From Thraustochytrium sp. TN22 (Eukaryota > Sar > Bigyra > Thraustochytrida > Thraustochytriidae), in assembly GCA_013306675.1 (NCBI GenBank), contig JABLUY010000198.1:1-64000 (forward strand): DNA of 64,000 nucleotides. The letters are read 5' to 3'. This document shows positions 9,566-54,758 of this stretch, piece after piece. The notes below the pieces were generated by a model. It was not told the DNA's origin and ran no database searches. It saw nothing but the letters and a program-made list of their open reading frames with translations. How positions within the stretch are numbered: position 1 is the first letter of the stretch; each line of letters begins with the position of its first letter. Both the position numbers and the translations under genes were made by a program.

Positions 9566-12500
9566 CTATTCCTTGTCAACGCTGGACAAGAGCGTCTTCT
9601 TGAAAACCTTCACGGTGGTGGGCTTGATGATGATGCCCTGCAGTCCGAGGCCCTTGACGCGGTCAGAGAGCTCGGGCGAGGTGTCGGCCGTGTAGAGCCA
9701 GATGCGCAGGTCGGGGTTGTGCTTGAGGGCCTCGGTAGCTGCCGAGATGCCGTCCGTGTCCGGCATGTGGAAGTCGATCACGATGGCGGCAATGGGACAC
9801 GAAGCTAAAGAGAGCTTCCGTGCGAGACGGACGAGGGGCAGCCCGCCATCCACGGCCTTGCAGGGGATGTCTGGGAATGCCGTCTTGAAGAAGCGCTCAA
9901 TGACGATCCGGTTGACGTCATTATCGTCCGCAGCCAGGAGCACAGGCTTCTGCGAGGCAGCCACCTGGGCGACGAAGTCCTTGAACTCCTCCGCGTACTC
10001 GTCGTCGTCGCTCGTGTAACGCTCGAGCTGCACCTTGGCGACCTCCTCGTCGAGGGCCTGCGACGGAGGCGGCGGGCTGGGCGGTGACTGGTTCCGGGCC
10101 GTGAGCATGCGGAAGGTGGAGGTCTCCTCCTCGTCGGGTGAGGCCACCGAGTCATCGAGTTCAGGCGGGGCCTCGACAACGCCGACGGGCACGTAGAACT
10201 GGAAGCAAGTGCCGTTGTCCGGCGTCGATGCGCACCAAATGTTTCCGCCCAAAAGTTCTGCCAGATCGCGGCAAATCGAGAGACCCAGGCCAGTGCCCTG
10301 GTACTTTTTGCACACGCCGACCGAGTGGACCTGGGCAAACTTCTGGAAGAGCTTGGCGCGCATGAGGCCCTCTTCGATGCCGATACCATGGTCCGTGACC
10401 GTGAAGAGCGCGTAGGCTCGTTCCGGCGGCGGCCCGCCGTCCGCGGGAGGCGTCGAGGGCGTCACGGGCGGGCTCGGGCCGTACAGCGACGGCAGTGAGT
10501 CCATGATGGCCTCCGCTGGCTGGCTCAGGCCGACATACGAGCTGATGGTGCTGCGCACGGCGTCATGCAAGGCGCCAGGATCCTGCATGATGCGGCCCTC
10601 GACACGAATCTCGTCGCCGCTGCCGGACTTGGAGAACTTGAGCGCGTTGCCGCACAGGTTCAGAAGGATCTGGCGCACGCGGCCCGGGTCGCCCACAAGC
10701 TGCTTGCCGGTGAGGTCAATGTCGAAGGAGACCTTCTCTGTCAGGCGCAGCTTCTCGTTGGAGACGGCGCGCTCGAAAAGCAGGTAGACCGAGTTGACCG
10801 TGAGCGCGATGTCCATGGGGCTCTGCAGCACCTCGAGCTTGCGCTCATCGAGCTTTGCGGCCGTGAGTAGGTCGTCCAGAATGCTCAGCATGGCGTCTGC
10901 TGACCGCTCGGCCGTGCCGACCAGATCCTGCGCGGCCTCCGGCATGCCCTTCTCCTCAGCGAGTGCGCTGAGCAGACCGACGATGCCGTTGAAGGGCGTG
11001 CGAAGCTCGTGGCTCACACTCGCCAAAAAGCGCTTGGTAATCTTGGATGTGCGGCGACGCTCGTCTGCAGCGAGAACGTCCGAAAAGGACACGTAGGCGT
11101 GCGCACGGAAAGAACTCAGCGCGTCCAGGGTCGTGTCGCTCCACTCGAAGGAGTGGCCGTCGACCAACTCATCGAAAGCCTGGAAGGACCCGCGCGGCTG
11201 CAGCCGAGAACCGGTGGTGATTTCCTTGCCAGTCTTGGCCTTGGCGCCGGCCCAGCGCACGTTCTGCTCCACAATGTTGCGGATGAGGATGATGTCGCAC
11301 AGAACCAGCCGGATAATGGCCATACCCGAAGTGCGGTTCTGCACGAAGGAATCCTTGTAAGCCTCGTAGGCGCTTGGGCAGTCGGCCTGAATGCAGGCTG
11401 TGCTTGGCACCAGATCGTTGTCGTGGTAGTCGCAGAGCTCGCGGCAGGCCGCCAGAACGGCGTCCTGGTCGATTTGCGCGCCGAAACTGAGCGCCTGGCG
11501 CACAATGGAGGACTCCGCTGTCTCCTCCATGTCGTAGCTGACGATGAGCATGGCGTCGGCCTTGGCCGAGTCGCGCAGGGTTGCCTCAGACTCGGACAGA
11601 ACCTCGACCGCCTGGCCCACCGAGTCGAAGCGCGGGAGCAGCACACGTTGGATGCGGGCGGCCATGCGGCGCGAGCGACGCGCGCGAATCGTCTGCAGCA
11701 CGCTACTGGCCGACTTGCACAGCTGCCGCAGGAGCATGCGCTTGGCCGGTCCCATGGTGAGCGGGTCGCTGTTGTGGCACGAAAGCATGCCAACCATGAC
11801 GTCGTCCACAAGAACGGCCGCCGTGCAGCTCGAAGCTAGCCGCATGTTTGTCAGGTACTGCCGGTGGATCGGACCGCACTGCCGAAGGTGCGTGTTGCTC
11901 AGGTCCGTGAGCCGGCCGTCGACGTGCGTGGGCACCAGCTCGATGCCGGGCGAGCTGGTGTCCATGATGTGGCGCACGCGGTTACGCTTCAGCAGCGCGC
12001 GCGCCTGCATCGGGATGTCTGTTGCTGGGAAGCGGTATCCAAGGAACTCCGGCGTGCCGGGCTTGCACTTCTCCGCCACGACCTCGCAGTGGCCGCCAGG
12101 CAAAAAGTTCACGTACATGACGCGGTCGAACTTGGTGAATTCCGCCACGCAGTTCGTCAACAGCTGTGCCAGCTCGTCCTCGTCGCGCGCCGACTCGAGC
12201 TGCCAGTTGAGACGGTCCAGGCGCTCCAGCGCCGAGAGGTTCTCGGAGATGTTCTCAAAGGTCACATCCGACTTCTCCAGTGTGATGAGCACCGACCACA
12301 CCGGCTCAAAGTTCTCCATCGAGTCCCCGGACGCGCTCGGCCGCCGGCTCGCCGCCACCGAGACGTGGACCTCGCCGCAATGATCGAAGTTGACGCGATG
12401 CGTGATGTCACGAGACGCCAGCGGCGGTACCGTCGAGTTCGACTTGAGGAAGACGCGCGCGTCGTCCATCGTGTAGATCGACTTCCACCAGTCGAACATG

Positions 12501-12850
12501 TCCTGGCCCAGCACCTGCTTGCGGAAGCGCTCCGGCAGGTTCGCGGAGCACTCCACGGGCACCATCTCGCAGTTCATCGCGTCCGAAATGAGCTGGTCCA
12601 CCTTGGGCGGCAGCACGTCCTTGACGTTGTGCCCCACCAGCTCCTCCGCGCTCTTGCCGAGCCACTCATTGATGTTGCTCGACGCCTGCCGCACCACGCG
12701 CGACGCCTTGTCCTCGCCAGTCACGTGGACCACCACCACCGACCCCATGCACCCCTGCACCAGCGGGATCAGGTGCACGGGCTCCGTGTCGCACGCCGTC
12801 ATGCCATCGTGCTTGGTCCCCTCCAGGTCCTTCCACCGGTTGTGCGCCAT
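9566..12850 (-). CDS. Bacteriophytochrome-type hybrid sensor histidine kinase
   Basis: Red/far-red photoreceptor kinase of 1094 residues: PAS-GAF-PHY-HisKA-HATPase-receiver. The N terminus has CDTEPVH with Cys20 at the biliverdin-attachment position of bacterial and fungal phytochromes. GAF has PATDIPMQAR (Asp278) and PIHRQYL (His329); the residue before His329 is Ile, so there is no plant-type attachment Cys. The PHY tongue shows RWAG and PRGSF (552-556). The kinase core has the H-box SHELRTP (His614), N-box NLCGNALKF, and DHGIGI and GTGLGLSI boxes. The C-terminal receiver has Asp1026 in VIDFHMPDTDG, with the later Thr and Lys present. The ATG at 12850 was chosen because it directly precedes the photosensory module; the frame continues to 13234 with low-complexity sequence. 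All residues needed for chromophore, autophosphorylation and transfer are visible. Output partner unknown. Confidence 0.95.
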   Translation of the reverse strand: MAHNRWKDLEGTKHDGMTACDTEPVHLIPLVQGCMGSVVVVHVTGEDKASRVVRQASSNINEWLGKSAEELVGHNVKDVLPPKVDQLISDAMNCEMVPVECSANLPERFRKQVLGQDMFDWWKSIYTMDDARVFLKSNSTVPPLASRDITHRVNFDHCGEVHVSVAASRRPSASGDSMENFEPVWSVLITLEKSDVTFENISENLSALERLDRLNWQLESARDEDELAQLLTNCVAEFTKFDRVMYVNFLPGGHCEVVAEKCKPGTPEFLGYRFPATDIPMQARALLKRNRVRHIMDTSSPGIELVPTHVDGRLTDLSNTHLRQCGPIHRQYLTNMRLASSCTAAVLVDDVMVGMLSCHNSDPLTMGPAKRMLLRQLCKSASSVLQTIRARRSRRMAARIQRVLLPRFDSVGQAVEVLSESEATLRDSAKADAMLIVSYDMEETAESSIVRQALSFGAQIDQDAVLAACRELCDYHDNDLVPSTACIQADCPSAYEAYKDSFVQNRTSGMAIIRLVLCDIILIRNIVEQNVRWAGAKAKTGKEITTGSRLQPRGSFQAFDELVDGHSFEWSDTTLDALSSFRAHAYVSFSDVLAADERRRTSKITKRFLASVSHELRTPFNGIVGLLSALAEEKGMPEAAQDLVGTAERSADAMLSILDDLLTAAKLDERKLEVLQSPMDIALTVNSVYLLFERAVSNEKLRLTEKVSFDIDLTGKQLVGDPGRVRQILLNLCGNALKFSKSGSGDEIRVEGRIMQDPGALHDAVRSTISSYVGLSQPAEAIMDSLPSLYGPSPPVTPSTPPADGGPPPERAYALFTVTDHGIGIEEGLMRAKLFQKFAQVHSVGVCKKYQGTGLGLSICRDLAELLGGNIWCASTPDNGTCFQFYVPVGVVEAPPELDDSVASPDEEETSTFRMLTARNQSPPSPPPPSQALDEEVAKVQLERYTSDDDEYAEEFKDFVAQVAASQKPVLLAADDNDVNRIVIERFFKTAFPDIPCKAVDGGLPLVRLARKLSLASCPIAAIVIDFHMPDTDGISAATEALKHNPDLRIWLYTADTSPELSDRVKGLGLQGIIIKPTTVKVFKKTLLSSVDKE

Positions 12851-14741
12851 CTTGCCGCCGCCCGAGCGAGTTCGACGCCTACGTGACGCCGCGCGGGGAG
12901 TAGTAGAGAAGAAGCACGGGCACTCCAAGCGAGTCCGCCGCGGCTCGATGAGCGTCACGCCCGCCGCCGCCCGCCGCCGCCCACCGCCTCGTGCGCCGCT
13001 CCGCGCCGCGCCGCGCCGCGCCGCGCCGCCTGCCGCGCCGCGCCGCCGCGAGCGCGCGGGTGAGTTGAGTCGTGCAGAGGGTTTGAGGTCTGGCCGCCCG
13101 CCCGCCCGCGCGCCGGCCCAGAGCCTCGCGCGCGCCGCCGTCGGCACGCCCCTTGCCCCTGCCTGCTTAGCCTGGTCGCTGTGCTGCGCGCCGCCCTGCG
13201 CCGCGCAGCACAGTGCTGCAGCGCCTGCAGCCACAGTGCCGGCGCGGCCTCCAGGCTGCGCGGGCCGCGAGCTAGCCAGCTTGCGGCGGCTTCGGCGGCG
13301 GCGAGCAGGCCAGCTTGCGGCGGCGAGGGCGGCGGCTTCGTCGCGCGAGCTGCGGCTTCTCTCCGCCGAGCTGGCCGTCCATGGCGGAGCTAGCTAGCTC
13401 GCCCCGCCCCCCGCCCCCGCAGCCCCCCGCCGCCGCCGCAGGCGCTGCACTGTGGACGAAGCTGCGCGGGTGGACCCCCGCAGCGCCTCCAACGCACGGC
13501 CCACCACTGTGTGGCGCCGGAACGAGCAGGCTGCAGGCCTGGCCCGCACAGTGCGCCCGCAGCGAGAACCTGGACACCGCACTGGCCCCGCGAGCTACTG
13601 CTCTCGCTTGCTTCGTCCTGCGAACCGCGTCAACGCCCCCTTGAGAGAGGAAGTCCCGCGGCCTCAGGCTGCGCCCGTCCTGCGAACGGCGTCAACGCCC
13701 CTTCAAAAGTCCCGCCTGCGCCCGCGTGGACGCAACGAGCCAGCCGCCAGGCTGCACTGCAGGCCGCCAGGGCCAGCCAGCCCGAGCCCACCAGGCCACC
13801 GCATCGGCCGCTGCAGGCAGGGGTGGCGGCGCTTCTACCGCCTCTCAAGCCGGAGCCTGCGATGGCGGCAGGGAGGCGGTCGGTTTCTCGAGCCCAGCGC
13901 AGTGCCCCACGGCTCCAGAGTCCAGCATTGACAGTGAACTAAGAAAACGCAGACCGCACTCACTGCAGCTGGCAGGTCGCCGCCGTGGCGTCGCGGCGTC
14001 CCGAGCCTGGACTCCGAGTCCGAGCGCCCTCACATGGCATCCGCGCTAGGCCGCTGTACTACATGGCCTACGCGCGATGGCTGGGTAGTAACGCATCCTG
14101 CCTGGTCAAACGGATTGACTCGGAGGCCAAAGAGCTTTACGCTCGACGCCAACGCAGGCTTCGAGCGGAGGCGCTCCTGGCGCACCTGGACAAGGGCGTG
14201 CCAACGCACGCCGAACGCGAAGCCGCCGCCGTGACCAGTAACGCCGGCTGCGATGCGGATGCCTGTGATGCTTTTCGCGCATCAAGCCTGCAGTGCCAGT
14301 GGTGCAAGATTTCCGACTTGAGTCTTTGGCTTCTTCGCCGTCACTGACTGTGACCATGACCGCCGTGTGATGGACTCGGACATGAACACGAGCACACCTC
14401 GTCCGCTCACGCACACGGGGTCCGCGGTCTAAGTTGATTTGACGGGCCTTTACTAGGCCATCCAGTAGCTTGGACTACGCAGTGGCGCTGGGGGGGTTGG
14501 AGCCGGAGATAGGGCGCTTCTCTAGGAGGGAGGGCGGCCCAGAGGGGGATCTTCGAGCTTCGGAGAGGCGGTCAAAACGCGCTCGCTCGAGTTCAAGCCC
14601 GCGCCCGCGCCGCTCGCCCGCCCGCGCGCCCGCGCTCCCGCGCGTCCACGCGCGCGCGCGCCCCGCGCCCGCGCTCGCGCCCGCGCCCGCCCGCCCGCCC
14701 GCCGCCCGGGCTCGTAGGCCGCGACCGCGCGCTCGTTCGCC
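12851..14741. other. Long divergent intergenic region, no gene seen
   Basis: Nearly 1.9 kb of very GC-rich DNA between the phytochrome kinase and CapZ alpha genes. It contains CGCCG runs near 13005-13030, an AGCTAGCTAGCT palindrome at about 13388-13400, and an imperfect direct repeat of about 26 bases (copies near 13614 and 13676, built on CCTGCGAAC-GCGTCAACGCCCC). The open frames here are Arg/Ala/Pro-rich with no family resemblance. Confidence 0.6.
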
Positions 14742-43538: not shown

Positions 43539-44231
43539 CCTCGGCCAGCGCGCGGCAGCACACAGCCAGGCCTCGTACGCCCTCTCCCGAAGCGGTTTTG
43601 CCGCCGCCCGCCGCCCGCAGCCTCCTGCCCTCGCTCGTCGCCGGCGCGGCCCTGCACGCCGCCGCCCTCGCCCTCGTCTTCAAATTTCCGAGTTTGCGCT
43701 CCGCCGGAGCTGTCGAACCCGCTCGCCGGGGGCTCGGCGCCGGCGTCGGTGCGGCCCGCGCGCCTGAGGCCGGGCCTTCCGGCGCGGCGCGGCGCGGCGC
43801 GGCGCGGCGCAGGAGACCCTGGCAGCGCGAAGAGGATTTGATCGCGCAGAAACTATCTGTCTCTCACATGTCAGTGCCGCGTCCCGGCCGGGTCCCGGGG
43901 GGCGTCCGCGAGGCGTCCGCGAACGCGGGCACGCGGCGCGCCCCGGTGTGCAACAATTTTTTCGCGAAGCCGGATGAGGTCACGGTCTGATCAAAGCTCT
44001 ACGCGGCCAACCGCGGCGACGACCAAAGCCGCAACCACTGCCAGTGCAGCTCGCTCCGGAGGCCAGCAGGTACGTGGCAGCAACGCCTGGCGGGTCGCGC
44101 GCGCGGCGAGCGGGCGAGTCGAGTCGAGTCGAGTCGAGGCGAGGCGAGGCGAGCGAGGAACAGCACTAACCGGAGCGGGACGCGCAGACAGTCAGTCGCG
44201 GAGGAGACAGAGCTTGGAGCCCGCGGACGAG
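43539..44231. other. Divergent 5' region
   Basis: Between ETHE1 and the immunophilin gene. It holds a GCGCG run near 43788-43810 and GAGTC/GAGGC pentamer repeats at about 44116-44155, close to the immunophilin start. Confidence 0.6.
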
Positions 44232-45695
44232 ATGGCGGAGCAGGAGGAGGTGAAGGGCCTGGCGACGGAGGTGGGCCAGGAGCTGGACCTGACGGGCGAT
44301 GGCGGCATCGTGAAGAAGGTGCTGGCGCTCGGCGAGGAGGGCGGCGCGACGCCGCAAAAGGGCGACCAGGTGTGGGCGCACTACACCGGCACGCTGGAGG
44401 ACGGGTCGAAGTTTGACTCGAGCCGGGACCGCGGCAAGGAGTTCGACTTCACGATCGGGCAGGGCCAGGTGATCCAGGGCTGGGACGTGGGCTTCGCGTC
44501 GATGCGCAAGGGCGAGCGCGCAGAGCTCATCATCAAGTCGGACTACGGCTACGGCGACCAGGGTTCGCCGCCCAAGATCCCGGGCGGCGCGACGCTCAAG
44601 TTCGATGTGGAGCTGATCCGGTTCGGTCCCAAGCCCAAGGAGAAGTGGGAGATGGAGACGGCCGAGCGCATTGCGGAGGCGCGCAAGTTCAAGGACAAGG
44701 GCCTGGAGGCCTTCAAGGCCAAGGACTACGCGGCTGCGTGCACCGACTGGGAGCAGGCGGTCGATTACGTGGAGTACATCGAGGGCACGGACGAGGAGAA
44801 GAAGGAGGGCAGCGAGCTCAAGACGACGCTGCAGCTCAACATGGCGCAGGCGTGCCTCCTGGCCAAGGACTTCCCCAAGGCGATCGAGCTGACGTCGGCT
44901 GTGCTGCGTGACGACGCGTCCAACGTCAAGGCGCTCTTCCGCCGCGGCACGGCGCACTCTGCGCTGGCGAACTTTAGCGCCGCCAAGGAGGACCTGCTGC
45001 AGGCGCGCGACCTGGACAAGGAGAACAAGGCGATTCTGCGCGAGCTCGCGACGCTCAAGAAGCGCATCCAGGAGTCCAAGGAGAAGGAGAAGTCTCTCTT
45101 TGGCAACGCCTTCTCCAAGATGGGCGGCGGTGGCATGTACACGGAGAAGAAGTCCGTGGCGCCGGTCGTGGCGCATGACCAGCACAAGGACTGCCCCAAG
45201 GTGTACTTTGACGTCAAGGTCGGCGAGGACGCCGAGCCGGAGCGCATCGAGTTCGAGCTCTTCAAGGACACCGTGCCGCGCACCGCGGAGAACTTCCGCG
45301 CGCTGTGCACGGGCGAGAAGGGCTTCGGGTACAAGGGCTGCACGTTCCACCGCGTCATCAAGGACTTTATGATCCAGGGCGGTGACTTCACCAACCACAA
45401 CGGCACCGGCGGCAAGTCCATCTACGGCGAGAGGTTCGACGATGAGAACTTCAGCTCCAAGCACTCGGAGCCGGGCCTTTTGTCCATGGCCAACGCCGGC
45501 CCCAACACGAACGGGTCTCAGTTCTTCATCATTACCAACGACGATGGCACCCCGCACCTTGATGGCAAGCACGTCGTCTTTGGTCGGGTTACCAAGGGCA
45601 TGGAGGTGGTCCGCAAGATCGAGGACACCGAGGTCGAGGACTCGAAGCCAGTCTCGGCCTGCACCATTGTCGACTGCGGCGAGCTGGACGCCTAA
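44232..45695 (+). CDS. Dual-family immunophilin: FKBP-TPR-cyclophilin
   Basis: Peptidyl-prolyl isomerase chaperone with two unrelated isomerase domains, 487 residues from the ATG at 44232. The FKBP domain (about 30-125) has [22 protein letters not shown] and [18 protein letters not shown], so the drug-pocket Trp and Tyr are kept. Three TPR motifs (about 140-270) follow, the usual Hsp90-tail docking unit. The cyclophilin domain (about 320-485) has [15 protein letters not shown] and NGSQFFI, with the catalytic Arg and Phe present. The Trp that contacts cyclosporin in human CypA is replaced by His442 in [12 protein letters not shown], which usually lowers drug affinity. The order FKBP-TPR-CYP matches the FCBP type known from Toxoplasma. 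Probably cytosolic. Confidence 0.96.
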
Positions 45696-50532: not shown

Positions 50533-51948
50533 TCAGACCTTCTTAAAGGCCGCAGTGTCCTTGCCGTAGCACCAATAGTTGACCATGACAGAAGAGCCCA
50601 TGTTCTGGACGTGGTGGAACCAGCCGGCGGGGAGGTAGAGGAGCTCGCCGGGCTTGACGTCGACGATCATCTTGTTATAGTGCGAGGAGGACACGCCGGG
50701 CGCGTTGGGGTCGGCCGGGTCGCCGTAGCAGAGGCCCTTGTTCCTGCCCACGCAGCGGGGCTTGAGGAGCTGAAAGTCGGAGGGCGGGGCGATGGTGAAG
50801 CGCTTGGTGCCGGCAATCATGACGACAATGTTGTCGCAGCAGTCGGAGTGCGAAGCGGTGCCGGAGACGCCGTTGCCCATCCAGAGGCTCCCGCGCTGCA
50901 TCCAGCGGCGCGGGAAGAGCGTGGGCGGGCGGACCCCGAGACGGCGCAGCGCGTCGGGCTTGATCTTCATGTTGCGCGGGAGGTTGCGAAGGCCGTTCTT
51001 CTTGACGAGGGTGGCGTTGGCGCGAAGAGCCGCGAGGCCCGGGCCGAGGTCGACCTCGCCGTCAAAGCGCGCGTTAGGACGGTACTGCGCGAAGGTGTTG
51101 GTGCGCACGTCCTTGCCGTCGTAGGGGAAGAGGTCGTAGAGCTCCTCGAAGGTGTAGGCGCGACCGGTGTAGCCGGACTTGCGCATGTTGTCCATGCGGA
51201 AGAGCAGGGGCTGCGCGAAGCGGCGGAAGCGGGCGCGGAAGTTCTGCTCGTTGAGCTGGATGTTGCGCTTGAGCACGGGCACGAAGCGCTTGATCGGGTG
51301 CTCCGTGTACAGGCGCTTGTAGTCCTGCACGCCCCACCACTCGCCGGTCTTGGTGGGCACGTCCGGCACGAAGACGTCCGGGCTCGTGGACCACTCGGCG
51401 TAGTTCTCGAAGAGCTCCGAGGGATCGTACGAGGTGAGGTCCGCGAAGGGCTCCGTGTACAGGTTGGCCACCTGGGCGGCGGCCGAGAGGTCGGCGCGCT
51501 CGTCCTCGAGGCGCTCCGCCTCGAGCTCGGCCTCCTCCTCCTCGTCGCGGTCGCCGTCGCCCGGCGCCGGGTCTCCGTCCACGGGCCGCGTGTACTGCTC
51601 CTCGCCGTTCGCGCTCGTGATCTCGTCGCCGTCGTTGCCCACGGCCGGCAGCGTGGCGAAGCCCCCGCCGCTGCCGCCCATGGTCGGCAGCAGGCTGCCC
51701 ACGGTGGCGAGCGCGCCGTCGCCCTGCTGCTTGCCGTGCGCCGCGTAGCCGAAGAAGAACGAGGCCACCACCAGCACCAGCATCACCGCGTGCAGCGCCC
51801 ACGGCGACTGCCGCGCCACGCGCACCTGCCGCGCCACGCGCTCGCGCAGCGACCCCGCCGCGCCCTGCCCGTGCAGCAGGCCCTCCGTCGGCGAGTCCGC
51901 CCGCGAGTACGGCAGGCTGCCGCTGCTGTGCTTGCGCGCCTTCATCAT
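50533..51948 (-). CDS. Type II membrane JmjC/cupin-8 dioxygenase
   Basis: Predicted Fe(II)/2-oxoglutarate hydroxylase facing the secretory lumen, 471 residues from the ATG at 51948. A short basic cytosolic tail precedes one membrane span (about 50-72, ALHAVMLVLVVASFFFGY). A Gly/Asp/Glu-rich stalk follows, then the cupin-8 fold: SLWMGNGVSGTASHSDCCDN with iron ligands His367 and Asp369, AGTKRFTIAPP, and ELLYLPAGWFHHV with His445 as third ligand. Substrate (protein or otherwise) is unknown. The frame continues to 52128, but the paired ATGs at 51948 start the basic tail. It is head to head with the prolyl 4-hydroxylase gene, which has the same membrane topology. Confidence 0.87.
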   Translation of the reverse strand: MMKARKHSSGSLPYSRADSPTEGLLHGQGAAGSLRERVARQVRVARQSPWALHAVMLVLVVASFFFGYAAHGKQQGDGALATVGSLLPTMGGSGGGFATLPAVGNDGDEITSANGEEQYTRPVDGDPAPGDGDRDEEEEAELEAERLEDERADLSAAAQVANLYTEPFADLTSYDPSELFENYAEWSTSPDVFVPDVPTKTGEWWGVQDYKRLYTEHPIKRFVPVLKRNIQLNEQNFRARFRRFAQPLLFRMDNMRKSGYTGRAYTFEELYDLFPYDGKDVRTNTFAQYRPNARFDGEVDLGPGLAALRANATLVKKNGLRNLPRNMKIKPDALRRLGVRPPTLFPRRWMQRGSLWMGNGVSGTASHSDCCDNIVVMIAGTKRFTIAPPSDFQLLKPRCVGRNKGLCYGDPADPNAPGVSSSHYNKMIVDVKPGELLYLPAGWFHHVQNMGSSVMVNYWCYGKDTAAFKKV

Positions 51949-53144
51949 CCTCGCCGCTCGCGCTCGCGCTCCTCCCCTCCTCCTCCTCCTCCTCCGTTTC
52001 GGCTTTGCCGCCGCGCCGCCGCAGCCCGCCTCCTGCCGCGGGACGCGACGGGACACTCGCTCTCGGTCCCCTGCCCCGCCGGCACTGGCACGGGCAGCGT
52101 CCGCCCAAGCGAAGCCAAGCCAAGCCAAGCGAAGTCAAGCCAAGCCAAGCGAAGTCAAGCCAAGCCAAGCCAAGCCAGAAGCAAAGCAGCGACTCGGCTC
52201 GGCCTGCGCGGGCGCGGCCTGCGGCGGCCGTTGCCGGCCGGCCGGAGTCGGCGGGCCGCGCGGGCGGCCATTGTTCAAGCCCGAGCACGCGCTCTCTCTC
52301 TCTCTCTCTCTCCCCGTCACCGGCGTCCTCACGGGCGAGGGCCAGAGCGCGGGAGCCGGTCGGACGCCGCGCGCGCGCGCGCGGTGCCCCCCGCGGGCGC
52401 GGCGGCGCGGCGGCGCGAGCAGGCGCGGCGCGCGCGGCGGGGGGCGCGCGGCGAGTGGTCGCGCAGGCCGCTTGCCGCGCGCTTCGCGCAAGCGTCCCGC
52501 ACCGCGTGCGCGCAGAAAGCGAGCCAACGTGGCGGACGCCGCGGCCGTGAGCGCGCGCAGGCTGGCTGGCCAGCGTGATGGCCCGGCATGGCCGCGGAGA
52601 ACTAGCTGGTTAGCGGCAACGAATCACAGCTGAGCTGGCGCAGCGGCCACTGGCAAGCGTGGACAAACAACTCAAGTTGAAGGCAGGCTAGCTAGGCTGC
52701 GCGCGGCCGAACGAAGTCGAAGCCTGCCTGGGAAGGAGAAAGACGCGCCTGGCTGGTTGGAACGAGGGGCCGGTCTCCGCGACGTCACCGCGGCGTGGTC
52801 ACGCTCGCGGACGCGGTGAACCTGGACCTCAGGCTGGCCCCGAACTTGAACTTGAAGAAGGTGAAGCAGCTGAGCGCGACGAAGCGGCCTGATCGACCAC
52901 CGCTGCGGTGCCGCAGCACTGCGGCAGCAGGCAGGCGTGATCGCTCGCACGGGGCGCCACCGCGGCGCGCCTGCGGCGCGTGCCGCCGCGGACGGAAGGG
53001 CCGCGGAAGCAGCCTTGCGGTGGCGGGCGTGCAGTGCAGCGGCTTGCGCGGCGGTGGCCCGACCACGGCGACGGCGACGCTGCGACATTGGCATGCCCGC
53101 GGCGCGGCGGTAGGAGGGAGTAGTACTGCAACGAGGTGGAGACC
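51949..53144. other. Divergent region between two dioxygenase genes
   Basis: About 1.2 kb. It holds AAGCC/AAGCG pentamer repeats (about 52105-52180), a CT microsatellite (about 52291-52312), a CGCG run (about 52368-52382) and a GGCTAGCTAGGC palindrome (about 52686). No gene seen. Confidence 0.65.
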
Positions 53145-54758
53145 ATGAAGGACGCGCAGGAGCAGGAGCAGCTGGAGGAGTCAGAGAGACCGCAAGAGCG
53201 CGAGCGCGAGCGCGAACCCGGCGAGACGATGAGCAAGGGCAAGGCAGAGGAGCCGCGCGGCGGGCTGGGGCGCACGGCAGCGACGCTGGCGATGGTGGTG
53301 GCGGCGGCCGCCGCAGTGGTGACAGCTGTGGTGGGCGGCGAGAGGTCCGCGGTGGACGTCCTGGCGGACAAGGTGCCGGTGCTGCAGGCGCAGCGGCGGC
53401 GCGCGGAGGCGCTCAAGTGGCCGGTGAGCTTTAGCGTGCACTACAATGGGCTCGGCAAAGAGGAGGGCCTGGAGACGCGGTCGGATGCCTGGGGCAACCT
53501 GGACGAACTCATCCGCGAGGCGTGCGAGGGCATGGAACCCGTGCAGGAGCTGGCGGACCACGACAACGCAACGCTGCAGAGGCTGTGCGAGCCCTCGGAG
53601 GGCGCGCGGCTGTTCACGCACGGCGGCAGGCGCGTCATGTCGTTCGCCGACGTGCCGGCCAACGGGACCCGGCTCTACGTCGTGCCGCAGGGCCTGCACT
53701 TCGTCTTCCCTCTGGCCGAAGTGGGCGCCGAGATCGAGGCGGAGAACGTGGAGTCACCGCTGGAGGGCAAGCGCGTGCGGCTGCGGCAGCTTACGGAGTC
53801 GCCGCGCGTCTTCAGCATCGAGAACTTCATCTCGGACGAGGAGATCGACGCCATCCTGGAGCACAACATGGAGCTCGTCAAGCCAAGCGAGGTGGGCTTC
53901 GCCGGCTGGCGCGACCGCACGCGCACTAGCAGCACGGCGTGGGACTTCCACTCGCCGGCGTCGCGCAAGGTGCGGCGGCGCAGCTTCGAGCTCCTCGGCA
54001 TGGACTTTGACACGCGCATGGCCGACGCCGTGCAGGTGCTGCGCTACAACCTGAGCGAGTGGTACAAGCCGCACCTGGACGCTTTCGACAAGCAGGCGTA
54101 CGAGGGGTGGAACCCGCGCGAGGACAATGGCACGAACCGCTTCGCTACGGTCTTCCTCTACCTCTCGGACGTCGAGGAGGGCGGCCACACGGTCTTCCCG
54201 CTGTCCACGACGCATGAGGGCTACAACGGCGAGCGCATCGTGCACGATGGCACAATCAACACGCCGGGCTATATCGCGGACAAGGACGCGCGCTGGGCGT
54301 GCAACACCTCCTCGACGGCCTTGCGCTCCGGCACCTCGCGCGGTTCGGCGCTCCTCTTCTATTCGCAGACCGCGGACGGCGCGCTCGACCCGTACAGCCT
54401 GCATGGCGGCTGCCCGGTGGTCAAGGGCATCAAGTACTCGGCCAACGTGTGGATTTGGAACCGCCCCAAGCCCGACAAGTCCGAGGCGCGCGACTCGGAG
54501 CGCCCGGCTCCGGACCACAAGGGCATCCAGCTCCAATTCTCCAACGAGCGCGCCACCACACTCAACCTGTATTGGGACGATGGCACCGACGAGATGGTCT
54601 TCCAGTCCGTCATCGCTCCTGGCGACTCTCAGAGCATGACCACCTACAACGGCCATACCTTCGTGCTGCGTGACGCCACCACCAACGAGACTGTGCACAC
54701 CTTTACGGCCTCTGACAAGCTGCACAAGGGCCGCAACCACGTTGAGGTCGTGCAGTGA
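53145..54758 (+). CDS. Type II membrane prolyl 4-hydroxylase with C-terminal VHL-like beta domain
   Basis: Predicted to hydroxylate prolines in secretory proteins, 537 residues from the ATG at 53145 (a GTG nine bases earlier is ignored). A charged cytosolic tail is followed by a membrane anchor (about 42-64). The P4H core has HxD ligands His310 and Asp312 in YKPHLDAFD, distal His420 in HGGCPVVKGIK and 2-oxoglutarate Lys430. After a short linker (about 450-463), residues 464-530 match the pVHL beta domain: LQFSNERATTLNLYW, PGDSQSMTTYNGHTFVLRD. Against human pVHL hydroxyproline-pocket residues, Trp88, Tyr112 and His115 correspond to Trp477, the Tyr of TTY, and His504; Tyr98, Ser111 and Trp117 are conservatively Phe, Thr and Phe. 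The VHL match is by eye. Confidence 0.9.
   Translation: MKDAQEQEQLEESERPQEREREREPGETMSKGKAEEPRGGLGRTAATLAMVVAAAAAVVTAVVGGERSAVDVLADKVPVLQAQRRRAEALKWPVSFSVHYNGLGKEEGLETRSDAWGNLDELIREACEGMEPVQELADHDNATLQRLCEPSEGARLFTHGGRRVMSFADVPANGTRLYVVPQGLHFVFPLAEVGAEIEAENVESPLEGKRVRLRQLTESPRVFSIENFISDEEIDAILEHNMELVKPSEVGFAGWRDRTRTSSTAWDFHSPASRKVRRRSFELLGMDFDTRMADAVQVLRYNLSEWYKPHLDAFDKQAYEGWNPREDNGTNRFATVFLYLSDVEEGGHTVFPLSTTHEGYNGERIVHDGTINTPGYIADKDARWACNTSSTALRSGTSRGSALLFYSQTADGALDPYSLHGGCPVVKGIKYSANVWIWNRPKPDKSEARDSERPAPDHKGIQLQFSNERATTLNLYWDDGTDEMVFQSVIAPGDSQSMTTYNGHTFVLRDATTNETVHTFTASDKLHKGRNHVEVVQ

Follow-up and report, generated by a model that had tools for sequence, protein, structure and literature searches.

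A prolyl 4-hydroxylase joined to a VHL-type beta domain in the thraustochytrid Thraustochytrium sp. TN22

Background

Animals write hydroxyproline (Hyp) with one protein, an enzyme, and read it with another, and this pair is generally described as an oxygen-sensing device of animals. Here we describe a gene in which the two folds occur in one polypeptide. It lies in a 64,000-nucleotide stretch of the genome of Thraustochytrium sp. TN22 (GenBank assembly GCA_013306675.1, contig JABLUY010000198.1, positions 1 to 64,000; hereafter the window), and its product, called C108 below, consists of a prolyl 4-hydroxylase (P4H) core followed by a domain of the type found in the beta domain of pVHL. The animal EGLN/PHD and pVHL system likewise combines a hydroxyproline writer with a VHL-type fold; it differs in being built of separate proteins, in its HIF substrate and in its ubiquitylation outcome, as described in PMC9618697. 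Unlike that pathway, the window protein is fused, carries an N-terminal hydrophobic segment and has no alpha domain that we could find. The same source gives the HIF/PHD/VHL pathway as absent in protists, yet reports choanoflagellate homologues of PHD, FIH and VHL (PMC9618697).

The central hydroxyproline site of pVHL is made up of Trp88, Tyr98, His110, Ser111, His115 and Trp117: Ser111 and His115 bind the hydroxyl, Tyr98 binds the Hyp carbonyl, and the main-chain carbonyl of His110 binds the amide NH (PMC9528729). Set beside the human pVHL beta domain (PDB 1lqb, 1lm8), the window domain has the same seven-stranded beta sandwich, aligns without gaps and keeps Trp88, Ser/Thr111, Tyr112 and His115; it differs in having no alpha domain, in its fusion to an oxygenase, in the replacement of Tyr98 by Gln and of Trp117 by Phe, and in its predicted luminal location. 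The catalytic part of the protein is that of the Chlamydomonas-type secretory P4H (PDB 2jig, 3gze), with the same iron and 2-oxoglutarate (2OG) residues, to which the window protein adds an insert between residues 354 and 397, an N-terminal region without Pfam matches and the C-terminal VHL-type domain. The alpha subunit of collagen P4H is also a P4H with a substrate-binding domain of its own, of an unrelated fold to which nothing here has a Pfam match (E<=10). Bacterial VHL-like domains are homologous to the window domain and keep the pocket residues, but their partner is a peptidase, a sulfatase or none. A P4H-VHL fusion was found in none of the matches listed in the open-licence PMC literature (a passage of PMC10015696 names a P4HA gene in an abbreviation list only), and within that literature, as far as our searches reach, the fusion is new in print; the architecture may already have an automatic entry in public domain databases.

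Results

The prolyl 4-hydroxylase core

A sequence-only reading of this DNA had proposed an open reading frame (ORF) encoding a P4H with His310, Asp312, His420 and Lys430 in its core, fused to a VHL-like domain. The frame indeed runs for 537 amino acids from the ATG at 53145 with no stop inside, and both PF13640 (E=2.5e-11) and an alignment to 2jig bear out the core. The latter, a Chlamydomonas prolyl 4-hydroxylase, is the closest solved structure by sequence (E=3.1e-25), and in its alignment the HxD...H triad and the 2-oxoglutarate lysine come in the correct order (H310, D312, H420, K430); we take His420 to be the third iron ligand and Lys430 to be the 2OG-binding residue. The gene product thus contains a P4H core with all catalytic residues, and P4H activity is predicted. 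Across the whole protein only PF13640 and PF01847, the Pfam model of VHL, gave matches (E<=10).

Between the two domains lies a charged linker, whose residues 443–459 show a ratio of nonsynonymous to synonymous substitution rates (dN/dS) of 1.16 over 17 codons in comparison with C57, the closest paralogue in the genome. Residues 91–210 (window 53415-53774) are without a Pfam match and are 54% identical to C57; by eye they have a ubiquitin- or doublecortin-like look, as does the corresponding part of another P4H of this genome, C70.

A VHL-type beta domain at the C-terminus

The C-terminal domain is almost certainly a true VHL-type homologue. PF01847, with a curated cut-off of 21 bits, matched residues 461–517, at 24.8 bits (E=2.3e-5) for the isolated segment and 20.6 bits for the whole protein, so that the profile check proposed with the sequence-only reading returned VHL. 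A six-frame search of the genome at E<=10 gave four matches (C108, C375 and both C130 genes), three of them above the cut-off and the window gene the best at 23.9 bits (E=0.0013). The same search gave no PF01847 match in 14 control genomes, all of them silent, so those searches held no positive control of their own; it was positive in all four bacterial genomes already known to have the domain.

Profiles built from relatives gave a clearer signal. A profile of the six VHL-like domains of this genome (A1) found pVHL in the top 24 of 27 rows from the PDB (E 8e-4 to 7e-3), without gaps in the three alignments shown, and in a profile-profile comparison it matched an alignment of 13 bacterial VHL-like domains over 53 columns with a probability of 97.1% (E=6.8e-11). 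That bacterial alignment by itself matched pVHL in 24 PDB rows (E 9e-8 to 3e-7). When a hidden Markov model (HMM) of the 13 bacterial domains was run against 1519 ORFs, a set that includes overlapping loci of the same genes, the window ORF and its five sister genes outranked all others; four of the six scored E 1e-7 to 4e-6, C194 only 0.024 and C375 only 0.24. The bacterial domains came from 17 loci, of which one alignment (A2) used 16, leaving out L036 as the same protein as L035, and another (A3) used 13, leaving out L036 and the incomplete L040, L045 and L049.

The predicted fold concurs. AlphaFold2, given the window segment with 16 bacterial relatives and no templates (pVHL may be in its training data), returned a seven-stranded beta sandwich with a mean predicted local distance difference test score (pLDDT) of 85.2 and a predicted template modelling score (pTM) of 0.76. 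Among the best 50 of 75 rows that Foldseek returned from the PDB at E<=0.001, all 50 belong to entries that contain pVHL (lowest E=1.5e-5; TM score normalised by query length 0.73–0.80, root-mean-square deviation 3.0–4.7). Chance resemblance was rejected because the predicted fold agrees with profile searches run in several directions. The central claim of the sequence-only reading, a P4H and a VHL-type beta domain in one polypeptide, has the support of sequence profiles, of the predicted fold and of five sister genes in which the pairing recurs in differing domain orders.

The hydroxyproline pocket

In the gapless alignment the six central positions of the pVHL site are occupied by W477, Q487, T499 (at His110), T500, H504 and F506, that is, two identical residues (W477, H504) and two conservative ones (T500, F506). 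An earlier count of three identical and three conservative was right about Trp477 and His504 and wrong in its tally; the tyrosine it had counted as an identical pocket residue is Y501, which falls at pVHL Tyr112 outside the central six, and the Tyr98 position is Q487. Read down columns 88, 98, 110, 111, 115 and 117, the six domains of this genome have WWWWWW, QQQQVS, TTNNQN, TTTSST, HHHHHH and FFFFFF, and the 13 bacterial domains have all W, all Y, a mixture, all T, all H and all W. Phe at the Trp117 position also occurs in one bacterial copy, L161. As judged from these alignments, the site retains its hydroxyl-contacting residues (Ser/Thr111 and His115) and one stacking Trp but lacks the Tyr98 contact. 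The other refuting condition set with the sequence-only reading, that Trp477 and His504 should fail to share a pocket, is addressed only indirectly, by the matched fold and the gapless alignment.

Sister genes in the genome

With the window protein and VHL-like domains as queries, five more genes with a VHL-like domain were found in the same genome, six in all, and the domains of these other five are 26–49% identical to that of the window protein. C57 has the same P4H-VHL order (65% identity over the matched stretch, 59% overall). In C375 (VHL-ShK-P4H) and C194 (VHL-P4H) the domain is N-terminal; the reading frame of C194 enters an apparent intron ahead of the last P4H strand, leaving its C-terminal exon unseen. 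The remaining two, the C130 genes, are a converging pair with the domain C-terminal. A consensus query of the VHL-like domain recovered the six genes at E<=1.2e-7, and the next match, a weak one in C277, stood at E=0.14. In these genome searches an intron-containing gene appears one exon at a time, and distant stand-alone VHL proteins could be missed.

The C130 pair calls for separate treatment. Its oxygenase part found nothing relevant in the PDB and no plasmid match, and it matched 16 phage records, most of them hypothetical, some annotated as 2OG oxygenases and two as ferrochelatases. The closest phage relative (E=3e-13) is annotated as a 2OG-Fe(II) oxygenase and has the same family as its own best Pfam match, under the cut-off at E=0.011. 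The catalytic part of the pair resembles cyanophage proteins, on some of which the label 'ferrochelatase' may be wrong. The case for the pair rests on a weak Pfam match and on likeness to annotated cyanophage 2OG proteins, so that from sequence we class these two genes as probable 2OG oxygenases and the other four as firm oxygenases of the P4H type.

The domain is C-terminal on two P4Hs and on the C130 type, and N-terminal in C194 and, next to ShK, in C375; from these differing positions, at least three separate events would have joined the VHL-like domain with oxygenases. A viral origin of the fusion is unsupported, as a search of viral contigs with four queries from this genome and one from a phage turned up no fusion with VHL. 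Relatives were found there with the phage P4H query alone, at 79 loci of phage-type oxygenases, and in the 1422 ORFs of those loci HMMs of the VHL-like domain matched nothing better than E about 1. NCBIfam added nothing useful.

Cellular setting

By hydropathy, a hydrophobic segment at residues 45–65 of the window protein follows a charged N-terminus and is likely a signal anchor, with a type II orientation suggested. A strong N-terminal segment (19-residue mean >2.3) occurs in five of the six proteins with the VHL-like domain, and the sixth is signal-like (1.72). A P4H without such a segment, C75 (0.29), has no VHL-like domain, and neither has C425, a P4H with one (2.57). Past its segment the window protein has 6 sequons against 2.8 in shuffles (p=0.048), and the other five proteins have no significant sequon excess. 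The window protein is predicted, with good confidence, to be a luminal, membrane-anchored P4H.

VHL-like relatives in bacteria

A Nostoc VHL-like protein, searched against bacterial and archaeal genomes, matched at 17 loci, sorted by eye into 11 long DPP IV-like ORFs (L041–L051, from Verrucomicrobiota, Planctomycetota, Armatimonadota and one further bacterium) and six small proteins. All three of the long ORFs scanned with Pfam contain DPPIV_N and Peptidase_S9, and PF01847 matched at E<=0.01 in three of five proteins scanned (L037, L041, L047, L048 and the Nostoc plasmid protein). A further 24 VHL-like domains were found in 19 of 288 genomes of the phylum of L043, which we take to belong to the Limisphaerales, so that the phylum sampled would be Verrucomicrobiota. 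By Pfam, the 24 ORFs comprise 19 with DPPIV_N and Peptidase_S9, two sulfatases, two small proteins and one protein with five repeats. In the peptidase ORFs (L041–L051; L147–L165 other than L151; and L167) the VHL-like domain lies N-terminal of, or inserted in, a DPP IV-like S9 peptidase. Nine of the 13 aligned bacterial domains come from such ORFs, and all 13 have the same W, Y, T, H and W at the five core positions of the pocket. An alphaproteobacterial domain (L037:2992-3483) is joined to an MVL mannan-binding domain (Pfam). No 2OG oxygenase partner was seen in the 17 loci (by eye, with five proteins Pfam-scanned) or in the 24 ORFs (Pfam).

The DPP IV family is proline-specific and cuts after Pro. 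Proline is thus what the main partners of the domain act on, which speaks for proline or hydroxyproline as its ligand, and the sulfatases and repeats, in some of which the Trp or His of the pocket is missing, speak for a wider role in binding.

Features and neighbouring genes

Table 1. Features of the window gene, and the C130 gene pair elsewhere in the genome
Feature	Position	Strand	Basis
Complete coding sequence, P4H + C-terminal VHL-like domain (C108)	53145..54758	+	537 aa + stop, frame open from 53124, no internal stop
Hydrophobic segment, residues 45-65, likely signal anchor	53277..53339	+	Kyte-Doolittle 19-residue mean 2.41 at residue 45
P4H catalytic domain PF13640, residues 296-438	54030..54458	+	Pfam E=2.5e-11; PDB 2jig E=3.1e-25
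His310-x-Asp312, iron ligands	54072..54080	+	2jig alignment and residues read off
His420 to Lys430	54402..54434	+	2jig alignment and residues read off
Charged linker, residues 442-459	54468..54521	+	fast-evolving, C108 vs C57
VHL-type beta domain, residues 461-537	54525..54755	+	PF01847 profile, AlphaFold2 model, Foldseek PDB matches
Trp477 = pVHL Trp88	54573..54575	+	W in 6/6 own and 13/13 bacterial domains
Gln487 at pVHL Tyr98, Phe486 preceding	54603..54605	+	Q,Q,Q,Q,V,S in own six; Y in 13/13 bacterial
Thr500 = pVHL Ser111; Tyr501 = pVHL Tyr112	54642..54647	+	S/T 6/6, Y 6/6 own domains
His504 = pVHL His115; Phe506 = pVHL Trp117	54654..54662	+	H, F 6/6 own; H, W 13/13 bacterial
C130 converging pair, oxygenase-VHL, domain C-terminal	L020:1554-3584, L020:4097-6106	+, -	

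The gene upstream (window 50533-52128, minus strand) encodes a Cupin_8 protein (E=2.2e-27; JmjC models fell under the cut-off) with an N-terminal hydrophobic stretch visible by eye. It is divergent from the P4H-VHL gene, and the two are possibly a head-to-head pair of 2OG oxygenases. About 7 kb from the P4H gene, a single frame at 43974-45695 (plus strand) combines FKBP, TPR and cyclophilin domains (Pfam), a dual-family prolyl isomerase, and the frame at 9566-13234 (minus strand) codes for a histidine kinase of the phytochrome type together with a response regulator (PAS_2, GAF, PHY, HisKA, HATPase, REC). Rfam and tRNA scans of the window gave no match. Elsewhere in the genome a full-length PfaA-type polyunsaturated fatty acid synthase occupies a single frame of 3044 residues, beside which a divergent frame of 2083 residues matches part of the same model, a finding that fits a thraustochytrid-like labyrinthulomycete.

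Discussion

A proposed mechanism

We propose a membrane-anchored secretory-pathway P4H with a true VHL-type beta domain as its binding arm, an account for which we put the chances at about even. The enzyme would face the lumen of the endoplasmic reticulum or Golgi and would hydroxylate prolines of proline-rich cell-surface or secreted proteins. The beta domain would grip a proline or hydroxyproline segment of the client via Trp477, Thr500, His504 and Phe506, and this grip would keep the enzyme on repetitive or partly modified substrates, much as the lectin domains of GalNAc-transferases keep those enzymes on partly modified substrates. A flexible tether would fit better than a shared composite active site, since the domain is found at either end of the enzyme. 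It is somewhat probable that the domain binds a client or product containing proline or hydroxyproline, and only tentatively do we suggest that a VHL-type domain here reads hydroxyproline selectively. The fullest form of the proposal, an enzyme that writes and reads, whose VHL-type domain binds the Hyp made by its own P4H in a lineage that joined such readers to oxygenases at least three times, may be correct, and we hold it at that same tentative level.

Several observations weigh against this account. At E<=0.001 the six-frame PF01847 search of the 37.9 Mb genome gave no match, and among the isolated domains only three of six are above the cut-off, so that the Pfam VHL signal is weak: besides the window domain, C130a (22.5 bits) and C375 (22.1) pass, C130b (17.6) and C57 (13.0) fail, and C194 has no match. 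A search of the PDB with the single segment placed methylphosphonate synthase first (E=0.2), with pVHL at E 0.6–1.6; the cupin identity this suggested was overturned by the six-sequence profile. Within the pocket, Tyr98 is replaced in all six own domains (by Gln or another residue) and Trp117 is Phe, and pocket enrichment by column permutation is modest for the own six (p=0.019, against 2e-5 for the bacterial set), values that are indicative at most because the BLOSUM score favours W and H. The enzyme part of the C130 pair shows an HxD...H pattern by eye, matches PF13640 in one gene (E=0.073) and not in the other, and gave a negative result in profile comparison with P4Hs. The domain also appears dispensable for a P4H, being carried by 4 of 15 PF13640 matches in the genome: around the other 11, an HMM of all the VHL-like domains matched nothing below E=0.5 in the ORFs of the flanks (about 1.5 kb on each side of the match, both strands, with long genes cut), and it is missing from C425, an anchored ShK-P4H among these 11, and from C70, a P4H outside the 15. 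In bacteria, two sulfatases have the domain at their C-terminus (L168:1447-3162 and L170:1429-3168), that of L170 without the pocket His, and in the five tandem repeats of L169:1-1818 the later ones lose the pocket Trp or His.

Alternative readings

The strongest alternative, possible and about as tentative as hydroxyproline-selective reading itself, is that the VHL-type fold is a general accessory module of secreted enzymes, one that binds peptides or glycans or helps in packing and does not recognise Hyp in particular. It stays alive because the domain also occurs on bacterial sulfatases, and it can draw too on the two small single-domain proteins and the five-repeat protein among the 24 bacterial ORFs, on the MVL-joined alphaproteobacterial copy and on the loss of Tyr98 in the own six. 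Against this, the pocket columns are among the best kept, five of them invariant in the bacterial set, and the enzymes most often seen joined to the domain act on proline, be they the P4Hs of this genome or the DPP IV-like peptidases of bacteria.

Slightly less favoured, and on balance unlikely, is a domain that takes a proline-rich substrate before hydroxylation and feeds it to the active site without reading the product, a role that the peptide-substrate-binding domain of collagen P4H plays with a different fold. The loss of Tyr98 and the Phe at Trp117 may alter specificity, and the bacterial relatives sit in DPP IV-like peptidases, which cut after Pro; the hydroxyl-contacting Ser/Thr111 and His115, however, are kept in six of six. 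The probabilities of these alternatives overlap with our own, notably for the binder of unmodified proline, because the explanation we prefer, a binding arm on a secretory P4H, allows either Pro or Hyp.

It is improbable that the fused domain is a relic without a ligand pocket that only stabilises or dimerises the enzyme. Between the closest paralogues, C108 and C57, the VHL-type part does evolve faster than the P4H core (dN/dS 0.55 vs 0.32), but W, S/T, Y, H and F at 88, 111, 112, 115 and 117 are kept throughout the six domains despite their low identity, and the domain is present at both enzyme ends.

Least probable by far is an oxygen-sensing switch in which, as in the HIF pathway of animals, hydroxylation would lead to degradation. 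The protein does contain counterparts of both the writer and the reader of animals, but it stops 20 residues past 461–517 with no alpha domain or elongin C-binding BC box found there (Pfam, E<=10), it has the N-terminal hydrophobic segment, and the pathway is said in PMC9618697 to be missing from protists. With no alpha domain found and a luminal topology predicted, a VHL-type ubiquitin-ligase role is unlikely, and the VHL-type E3 receptor was dropped as a candidate on the missing alpha domain and the hydrophobic segment.

Conclusions

The folds of the animal writer and reader are found here together in an apparently secretory enzyme of a single-celled eukaryote, and the pairing recurs across six genes in varied orders. 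With the P4H-VHL fusion it can be tested directly whether reading of (hydroxy)proline by the VHL fold is older than HIF. If the write-and-read proposal is true, VHL-type hydroxyproline reading predates the animal HIF pathway and is independent of it, and the bacterial VHL-like domains with five-residue pockets on DPP IV-like peptidases would be readers of Hyp or Pro. Tethering of product or substrate is a possible mechanism by which P4Hs work along repetitive proline-rich proteins, and the VHL-type domain may offer a natural scaffold for hydroxyproline-binding reagents.

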